A DNA stretch of 64,000 nucleotides, from contig JAKQEQ010000038.1 of assembly GCA_029556545.1 (NCBI GenBank), positions 1 through 64,000 on the forward strand, in the 5' to 3' direction. The notes under the pieces are model-generated. The model made no database searches. It saw only the letters and a list, made by a program, of their open reading frames with translations, and was not told where the DNA came from. The stretch is from Candidatus Hydrogenedentota bacterium (lineage in GTDB: Bacteria; Hydrogenedentota; Hydrogenedentia; Hydrogenedentales; JAGMZX01). The position numbers and the translations under genes were made by a program. Shown one piece after another: positions 55,197-57,463 of this stretch (position 1 is the first letter of the stretch; each line of letters starts with the position of its first letter).

Positions 55197-56147
55197 TCAC
55201 CGCTTTGCGTTGCCAAGCGCGATCCGCGCGTTGCGCAGCATGCCGCCGTGCTTCGCGCGCCGGACGGGCGTCCCAGCGAACCGCGCGTTGAAGGCGTCCT
55301 CATCCTGTTCCGCGAGTTCGGCAAGCGCGGGGTGGGCGACGCCGGGGCGCGGATGAAACGCCGCCTCGTCCGTCGTCTTCGCGAATCGGTTCCAGGGGCA
55401 GACCTCCTGGCAGATGTCGCACCCGAAGACCCAATCGCGGAAGGCCGCGTGCAGCGCTTCCGGGATTTCGCCCCGGTTTTCGATCGTGTGATACGAGATG
55501 CACAGCCGCGAATCGACAACGCCCGGCGCGACAATGGCCCGGGTCGGGCAGGCGTCGATGCACGCGCGGCACGATCCGCAGCAGTCCTCGACGGGACGGT
55601 CCGGCGCGAGTTCCACCGTCGTCAGAATGACGCCGAGAAAGAACCACGAACCGAGATCGCGCCGTAATACCAGGCTGTTCCTGCCGATCCAGCCCACCCC
55701 CGCGCGCGCCGCCCAGGCCCGTTCGAGGACCGGCCCGCTGTCGATGCGACAATACGTCCGCGCGCCCGGCTCGAATCCCTCGACTGTCGCCGCCAGCGCC
55801 CGCAGCGGACGCCGCAGCACCTTGTGGTAGTCGCGGCCCCACGCATACGCCGCCACCTTCCCGGAGCCCGGCGGCTGCTCGGGCCGCGGATGATGATAGT
55901 TGCGCGCCACGACGATCACGGACTTCGCGCCTGGCAAGAGCAGTTGCGGGTCCTGCCGCGCGGCGCGTGTCCGCGCCATCCACGCCATGTCCGCGTGATA
56001 CCCCCGTTCGAGCCACGCGCCAAGCCGGTCCTCCGGGTCCGGCGCCTCGGCCCGCGCGATGCCGCAGGCATCGAAACCGAGTTCGCGCGCCGCCCGCTTC
56101 ATTTGATCAGCGCGCGCGGCAACAGAATCGACCGCATGATCGCTCAT
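55197..56147 (-). CDS. queG: epoxyqueuosine reductase
   Basis: A 316-residue cobalamin and Fe-S enzyme for the last step of queuosine synthesis in tRNA. Two 4Fe-4S motifs are present: CCGSCRACIDACPTRAI at about 195-210 and CDICQEVCPWN at about 250, together with RNYHHPRP, KDYHKVL-like GRDYHKVLRRPL and GRNSLVL. The ATG overlaps the stop of the upstream sensor gene by ATGA. The C-terminus is short compared with forms that carry HEAT repeats. Confidence 0.94.
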   Translation of the reverse strand: MSDHAVDSVAARADQMKRAARELGFDACGIARAEAPDPEDRLGAWLERGYHADMAWMARTRAARQDPQLLLPGAKSVIVVARNYHHPRPEQPPGSGKVAAYAWGRDYHKVLRRPLRALAATVEGFEPGARTYCRIDSGPVLERAWAARAGVGWIGRNSLVLRRDLGSWFFLGVILTTVELAPDRPVEDCCGSCRACIDACPTRAIVAPGVVDSRLCISYHTIENRGEIPEALHAAFRDWVFGCDICQEVCPWNRFAKTTDEAAFHPRPGVAHPALAELAEQDEDAFNARFAGTPVRRAKHGGMLRNARIALGNAKR

Positions 56148-57463
56148 GCCTCGGGCGGGTCCGGGCGCACGTCGGCGGGAGCGGGCGTCTCGACCGGGGT
56201 CGGCGCGCTTGCCGCCGCACGACGTCCATTATCGCCGGACTGTTCGATGCTGAACAGTTCGTCCACAAGCCCGAAAATGCGCGAGACGGCGCGGCGGCTG
56301 CTCTGCAGCGCCTGGCGTTGTTCGAGGGTGACCGGCCCGAGTTCCTCGTTCAGCAGGAGTTCGATAAACCCGAGCACGGCGGACAGGGGCGAGCGCAGCC
56401 GCCGCGACACATTCGCGAGGAACATGGACTTGAGCGCGTTGACCCGCTGCAGTTCCTCGTTGATCCGTTCGAGTTGCAGTTGCGCGAGCCGCGTCGCCTC
56501 CTGCATCTCCTTCTGCTCCGTAATGTCCCGCCACATCGACACGAAAAACCGCTTGTCGCCATGGATAAACGCGCGGATGCGCATGTCGATGACGCGCTCG
56601 TCGCCCGAGGGCTTTAACACCACCGCTTCGCCGTGATATTCGCCGCGCGCGCGCAACGTCGCCAGTTTGTTCGGCAGGGTCCCGTCATCAAAGAGATAGG
56701 CGCGGATGCGCTGCCCGATAAGCTGCTCGCGCCCGACGCCGAGGAACGCGCAGGCTGTGTCATTCGCGTCCGTGATGAATTCGTTCTCGTTGTGCGTCAG
56801 GATGGGCTCGCCGGCGCTGTCGAGGATCATCCGCAGCGTCGCCTCGGACGAGGCCAGCGCCTGCGCGCGGCCTTCGGCGGCGATCTCGGTCTCCATGAGA
56901 AACTCGCTAAGCGAACCCATGACCCAGCCGCCCATCACGATGGCGAGGAACTTCGCGGCCACGATGGACGCGGGCGTCTCGACGGCGAGGAAGTACTGCT
57001 CAAACAAAATGAGGCCGCCGTAACACACACAGCATAGGAACGTGACCAGCAGGCCGCCGCGGGCCAGCCGCGAGTACGTGTTGAAACCAATGATGAACAA
57101 CAGGTACAGCACGAACAGGGGGCTGTCCCCCGCGCCGACCAACCCCACGATCATCGTAATCTCGGCCAGGTGCAACAGGAAGTTGAGCGGCGAGATAAAC
57201 CACTCGTGGCGAGCCGTGGCCAGCACCCAGTGCACAAACAGATTGTGCAGCAGGACGTACACGCCCAAGCCGAGGTGAAAACTCAGGCGATCGGGCCGAT
57301 ACCCGAGCAACAGCAGGCCAATGAGCGTCAGATACGCGAGATACCGCGCCGCAAGCACGGTCCGCTCGATGTTCAACACGAGCGTCATGCGCGGGTCGGC
57401 CGATCCCGGCCCTTCCCCGCGCTTTGCCGCCGCGATAAACGCTCGGATGCCGTCCGTGTTCAC
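56144..57463 (-). CDS. degenerate membrane sensor protein (PAS + HisKA-like, no kinase domain)
   Basis: A 439-residue protein with about six N-terminal membrane helices (about 35-185), a PAS domain (about 205-325, [21 protein letters not shown]) and a HisKA-like helical pair. The H-box, usually SHELRTPL, reads [14 protein letters not shown], so the phosphorylated His is Arg. The protein ends about 75 residues later with an Ala/Pro tail and no HATPase domain. It cannot work as a normal kinase; it may be a sensor or adaptor. Start GTG. It is translationally coupled to queG. Confidence 0.85.

Follow-up and report, generated by a model that had tools for sequence, protein, structure and literature searches.

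A kinase-dead membrane PAS sensor family of the Hydrogenedentota that lacks both the phospho-accepting histidine and the ATPase domain

A 64,000-nucleotide stretch of DNA from a Candidatus Hydrogenedentota bacterium (hereafter called the window) encodes a membrane-bound PAS sensor that carries the HisKA/DHp hairpin of a histidine kinase but neither its phospho-accepting His nor its ATPase domain. Judged from the sequence, ordinary histidine-kinase activity is excluded for this protein because there is no His at the site and no ATP-binding domain. We consider it probable that the protein represents a lineage-specific, kinase-dead receptor of the Hydrogenedentota that acts in trans through its DHp dimer. 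According to this explanation, input to the membrane and PAS domains would alter the DHp dimer, and the dimer would in turn act on two-component proteins by direct contact without phosphotransfer. An initial sequence-only reading had reported, at positions 55197-57463, a sensor kinase without these parts that is coupled to queG. The sensor is real, and the span holds two genes, the sensor and queG, with the following features:

55197..56147, minus strand: queG, epoxyqueuosine reductase, 316 amino acids (TIGR00276, 355.7 bits)
56144..57463, minus strand: kinase-dead membrane PAS sensor, 439 amino acids, GTG start
56894..57394, minus strand: sensor membrane domain, six predicted helices, residues about 24-190 (AlphaFold2 models and structural resemblance to ImcA and Rv1625c)
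56504..56851, minus strand: sensor PAS domain, residues about 205-320, with a conserved FDDGTL motif (PF00989, TIGR00229)
56234..56491, minus strand: sensor coiled coil and HisKA/DHp hairpin, residues about 325-410 (PF00512, AlphaFold2 model)
56384..56407, minus strand: degenerate H-box SRRLRSPL of the sensor, residues 353-360; Arg354 is at the His position and Ser358 at the +4 phosphatase position
56147..56233, minus strand: sensor tail, residues 411-439, short and fast-changing, at the site of the ATPase domain in a kinase (alignment of orthologs)

Architecture of the sensor

The H-box had been read as SRRLRSPL in a protein that ends before any HATPase domain, and the present analysis confirms this: Arg354 occupies the position of the His, and a domain scan of the window sensor matched PAS and HisKA domains and no HATPase domain. 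HisKA is still recognized (PF00512, 43.9 bits over residues 345-408, with a cut-off of 26.9), and the C-terminus lies about 30 amino acids past it. When the sensor is aligned with the intact kinase that scores best in this genome (NVSHELRTPLSTIQGY), the His and the acidic residue of that kinase fall on Arg354 and Arg355, respectively. The overlap of the sensor stop with the queG start was likewise borne out and amounts to 4 bases (56144-56147). A concealed ATPase domain directly downstream of the sensor was considered and rejected, because queG begins inside the sensor stop codon and leaves no space for it. The Met at residue 26 is a possible alternative start of the protein.

The membrane, PAS and dimerization parts, which had been regarded as intact, are indeed recovered as a six-helix model and as PAS and HisKA matches. 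The AlphaFold2 model of the full sensor (mean pLDDT 81.8, pTM 0.52) combines six helices of membrane length with a PAS fold and a hairpin of two helices, the DHp being modeled with moderate confidence (pLDDT about 74-79 at residues 351-400, and 64 beyond). When modeled alone, the membrane domain reached a pLDDT of 88.2 and a pTM of 0.78. A fold search with the whole model returned predominantly PAS domains, with a NifL-NifA structure among the matches. When solved structures were searched by sequence, all matches were to PAS or HisKA domains in sensor proteins. For the membrane domain alone, Foldseek found no match at E 0.001 or better. VIA-align paired it with ImcA (8wcn; Z 11.3 over 184 residues, rmsd 3.5) and Rv1625c (7yzk; Z 10.3 over 150 residues, rmsd 5.4), the next row having a Z of 6.2; the identity in these comparisons is 11%, and helical bundles can match by chance. 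Both ImcA and Rv1625c have cyclase output domains. The modeled resemblance suggests, as a lead and not as proof, that the membrane part of the sensor is a receptor-type six-helix domain common to several output types.

The genome to which the window belongs has 45 HisKA matches (PF00512), 43 of which keep the His as read from their motifs. The window sensor is the sole one of the 45 without both the His and a recognizable ATPase G1 motif; this motif was sought by pattern, and three other, His-keeping HisKA proteins also gave no G1 match. On contig C87 of this genome (G000), a HisKA match at C87:25103-25276 lies in a 678-amino-acid frame in which Gln replaces the phospho-His (VAQEIKNP) and the ATPase motifs are kept. 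An intact kinase is located nearby, at C87:23100, and the frame possibly represents a second kind of kinase-dead sensor in the window genome. On contig C134, a 380-amino-acid frame with a HisKA match at C134:105803-106009 keeps the His (VSHDLQAP) and stops 56 residues after HisKA, no ATPase motif being found in it; by its sequence it may belong with the HATPase-less sensors that have been described from archaea.

Conservation, selection and ancestry

A search of 119 genomes and a profile search of 68 Hydrogenedentota genomes together identified orthologs of the sensor in 52 of these 68. No full-length match was obtained in the other 16 genomes, which include the only other genome of the same genus that was searched (G001, 96% complete in about 290 contigs, where a missed sensor gene is possible). 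Three of the 52 copies are cut by contig ends (G040, G045 and G059) and are left out of the complete count. The 49 complete copies are 404-451 amino acids long and every one of them ends soon after HisKA, which means that the truncation is conserved in the relatives. No more than 42 residues lie beyond position 409 in 47 rows, and one further complete row has 3 residues there; the copy in G012, which has a short C-terminus under the length filter, was measured separately. A domain scan of 47 members matched PAS in all 47 and HisKA in 42, and no HATPase family was among the matches (E 0.01). The sequence-only reading had named intact kinases at this locus in relatives as the mark of a pseudogene, and no intact kinase ortholog was found in the relatives.

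The phospho-accepting His is absent from all 50 family rows that could be aligned at this position in a 51-row alignment, where it is replaced by Gln (21 rows), Arg (11), Asn (8), Ala (4), Lys (3), Pro (1), Ser (1) or Cys (1). The Arg substitution that had been singled out is thus not the general rule; since the replacing residue varies among the orthologs, it is the lack of the His, and not the Arg itself, that constitutes the conserved trait. The +1 position is acidic in just one of 49 rows. The +4 position was read in 48 rows and is usually Ser (43 rows), with Thr in 4 and Asn in 1. A Ser or Thr before Pro at this position may only cap the helix; four rows from one genus have no Pro at +5, and their +4 residues are Thr, Thr, Ser and Asn. 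The genome G049 counts here among the carriers with complete copies and is absent from the alignments used for the residue tallies and for dN/dS. A second copy in G010 (contig C60, 3.4 kb) encodes a protein identical to that of G016, and G010 has its own, different copy. Because protein and score are the same as for the G016 copy, cross-bin contamination is the probable source of the C60 copy, which was excluded from the residue tallies, the queG contig counts and the tree.

Purifying selection was assessed in 22 close pairs of orthologs, several of which share a member and are therefore not independent; one near-identical pair was skipped, and dS is saturated in several pairs. In most pairs dN is far below dS for both PAS and DHp, and the tail is unconstrained. 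For example, G053 and G057 gave a dN of 0.004 and a dS of 0.168 for PAS and of 0.005 and 0.188 for DHp, and G047 and G055 gave 0.051 and 0.587 for PAS and 0.068 and 1.030 for DHp. DHp evolved faster than PAS between G013 and G019 (dN 0.336 and dS 2.427 against dN 0.163 and dS 2.270). The membrane domain is under weaker constraint than PAS and DHp in many pairs; between G048 and G052 its dN of 0.283 indicates much more divergence than in PAS (0.008) or DHp (0.005). These data bear on the possibility of a pseudogene or an assembly truncation. Decay would be expected to lose the His and the ATPase domain, but the occurrence of one architecture in 49 complete orthologs from separate genomes, together with purifying selection on PAS and DHp, refutes this explanation, to which we give practically no weight. 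The view that the gene is not in random decay was therefore correct.

In a DHp tree of 48 sensor rows and 22 intact kinases, all sensor rows lie on one side of a single branch with 97/98 support, a split found in 98% of 200 bootstrap trees; the tree is built on 95 columns and contains some long branches, two weaknesses that the program flagged. The 22 intact kinases, taken from the phylum as a control (21 belong to the two nearest types, the other is more distant), retain H-E-L-R and a G1-like ATPase motif without exception. Since the sensor rows form one group, the losses of the His and of the ATPase domain probably happened once, as far as these short sequences tell.

Within the limits of the searches, the family looks specific to the phylum. 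Among the matches listed from 386 genomes, 318 of them outside the Hydrogenedentota, no full-length relative was found beyond the phylum; this search was not exhaustive, with up to about four candidates scored per genome. The outside matches listed (best E 7.2e-30) cover PAS and HisKA and start at model position 159 or later, so that the greater part of the membrane domain is missing from them. Nine of them were examined: all nine have SHELRTP, eight have an ATPase G1 motif downstream, and the ninth has only 22 residues remaining in frame near a contig end. On these motifs, the nine are ordinary kinases. Two peptide patterns of the family were also run against 84,980 species genomes and returned 23 relatives, comprising 21 members, 20 of which are named Candidatus Hydrogenedentota or Hydrogenedentes, and two matches that are weak and partial, one from Pseudanabaena and one from a Pseudophaeobacter bin. 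Such a scan finds only relatives that keep the patterns, and it recovered fewer than half of the 52 carrier loci, most of which were expected there.

Gene neighborhood

The overlap of the sensor with queG had led to the proposal of a membrane sensor linked to tRNA queuosine modification, but the linkage is not conserved. queG adjoins the sensor in 1 of 51 loci from distinct genomes, namely in the window (44 loci have at least 1 kb downstream), and both genes are present in 42 genomes (one of the 42 queG matches, in G049, is weak), where they share a contig only in the window genome. Furthermore, the same-genus genome G001 has queG and gave no sensor match. As read from the sequence, a similar aminotransferase gene lies near queG in G001 with another gene between them, and a glycosyl-hydrolase-like gene lies on the other side. 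Apart from the 4-base overlap in the window, which would favor it, a sensor dedicated to queuosine modification is thus largely refuted, and we regard it as highly improbable.

Other genes recur next to the sensor on the same strand. A gene that we take to be rsmI, from its PF00590 match, precedes the sensor in 15 loci, all from a single family; in nine of them, each in a different genome (L067, L062, L090, L092, L097, L094, L033, L029 and L087), its stop overlaps the sensor start by 4 bases, the same spacing as between the sensor and queG in the window. A gene presumably encoding RNase D (PF01612 with HRDC) precedes the sensor in 22 loci from 21 genomes and three families, and pfk follows it in 13 loci from five families, in 11 of them within about 250 bases. 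None of pfk, RNase D, rsmI and queG was found beside the sensor in G007, G009, G021, G030 and G054. RsmI, RNase D and QueG all function in RNA maturation; this common theme may be a coincidence. These neighbors are relevant to the idea that the sensor directly controls a protein outside two-component signaling, perhaps phosphofructokinase, RNase D, RsmI or QueG, in the way that NifL controls NifA, an analogy suggested by the NifL-NifA structure that the fold search returned. The recurrent same-strand neighbors speak for such control, but no neighbor is constant, the conserved order is mostly inherited within families, and the sequence gives no pointer to an interaction. We consider this idea improbable.

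No two-component gene recurs beside the sensor in an open reading frame scan of the flanks of 52 loci. Genes in the flanks were called by a simple scan of open reading frames with BLAST clustering, so that some were likely missed, and many flanks are cut by contig ends. A cluster of kinase-like frames is present at three loci (G002, G038 and G061) and a cluster of NtrC-type response regulators at three (G002, G036 and G061), which makes four loci with two-component frames in all. Roughly 1 to 1.5 kb separate the NtrC-type frames (L083:2446-5339, L077:6374-7930 and L100:3144-4010) from the sensor; the one at L083 has a kinase-like frame beside it, and all three are weak candidates for partners of the sensor.

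Possible modes of action and relation to known systems

If the DHp dimer acts in trans, one specific form of this activity would be that of a signal-controlled phosphatase or a decoy for a phosphorylated response regulator. We put this forward tentatively, because the +4 Ser, Thr or Asn is always kept while the residues related to kinase activity, the His and the acidic residue at +1, have been lost. In HisKA proteins, a Thr or Asn at +4 is required for phosphatase activity and the acidic residue at +1 only for kinase activity (PMC3510030). The combination found in the family is the one expected of a sensor that acts solely as a phosphatase. Archaeal proteins with HisKA and without HATPase, in which the His is kept, have been suggested to possess response-regulator phosphatase activity (PMC5847659). 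On the other side, the +4 residue of the family is usually Ser rather than Thr or Asn, and two-component frames flank the sensor at only 4 of 52 loci. The isolated DHp of EnvZ is also described, in one study done in cells, as having no apparent phosphatase activity, which contrasts with the original report (PMC8971529). Still less likely, and in our view rather doubtful, is that the receptors have this one activity throughout the phylum, with a stand-alone DHp dimer that would only dephosphorylate or hold response regulators activated by other kinases. If this were true, the family would be the natural counterpart of the laboratory-made, DHp-only construct of EnvZ.

A second form of DHp contact deserves similar weight, as it fits the data about as well as the phosphatase or decoy activity. 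The non-catalytic sensor may pair with an intact kinase via the membrane domain, the coiled coil or the DHp and tune its activity, as RocA of group A Streptococcus does; we hold this role to be possible but short of probable. RocA is a pseudokinase with six putative membrane helices that contacts CovS and for which the His is dispensable (PMC7028121). Candidate partners in the window genome are the kinases that score highest with the family DHp profile, a 930-amino-acid hybrid kinase (C42, 66.9 bits) and a kinase of about 1245 amino acids (65.4 bits), others reaching 53.4 and 52.5 bits. Relatives of both occur in many genomes of the phylum, those of the hybrid kinase with or without the sensor. 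Much of the coiled coil is common to the hybrid kinase and the sensor, as is a pair of Arg residues in the second helix, but unlike the sensor the hybrid kinase keeps the His, the acidic residue and an ATPase motif. Against such pairing, identity to the window-genome kinases over the DHp stretch is just 17-40%, both candidates lie off the contig of the sensor in the window genome (C42 and C24 versus C172), and both are also present in G001, where no sensor was found. This role also leaves the conserved Ser, Thr or Asn at +4 unexplained.

The kinase-dead receptor that we favor can be set beside several known systems. DivL has a Tyr at the phospho-His position. The chloroplast sensor kinase CSK resembles the family in that its phospho-His is replaced, by Tyr, Gln or Glu; unlike the family, CSK keeps the ATP-binding CA domain, and DivL binds an ATP analogue poorly (PMC5054060). 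RocA is set apart by a His (H246) and a putative CA domain, neither of which the family has (PMC7028121). The archaeal 'HisKA, no HATPase' proteins, termed 'possible incomplete histidine kinase' in P2CS, consist like the family of sensor domains ending in a HisKA-like domain, but the His is described as conserved in them (PMC5847659), as opposed to 0 of 50 rows in the Hydrogenedentota. The family further differs from the archaeal class in being bacterial, orthologous across one phylum and equipped with a membrane domain of six helices. Sensors that are kinase-dead and sensors that have no HATPase are known separately, and an orthologous bacterial family that lacks both features appears to be new; in the openly accessible literature we found no account of this family or of another orthologous bacterial family lacking both the His and the HATPase domain.

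The family provides a clean natural case in which the kinase function has been removed twice over, with no His and no ATPase domain, and in which the sensor and the DHp are still under selection. It turns the question of whether a DHp alone can serve as a regulated phosphatase or binding module into one that is directly testable. The family also calls for caution in annotation, as genes that match HisKA, and that are possibly labeled as histidine kinases, cannot all be kinases. Lastly, it offers a handle on signaling in the poorly known phylum Hydrogenedentota.
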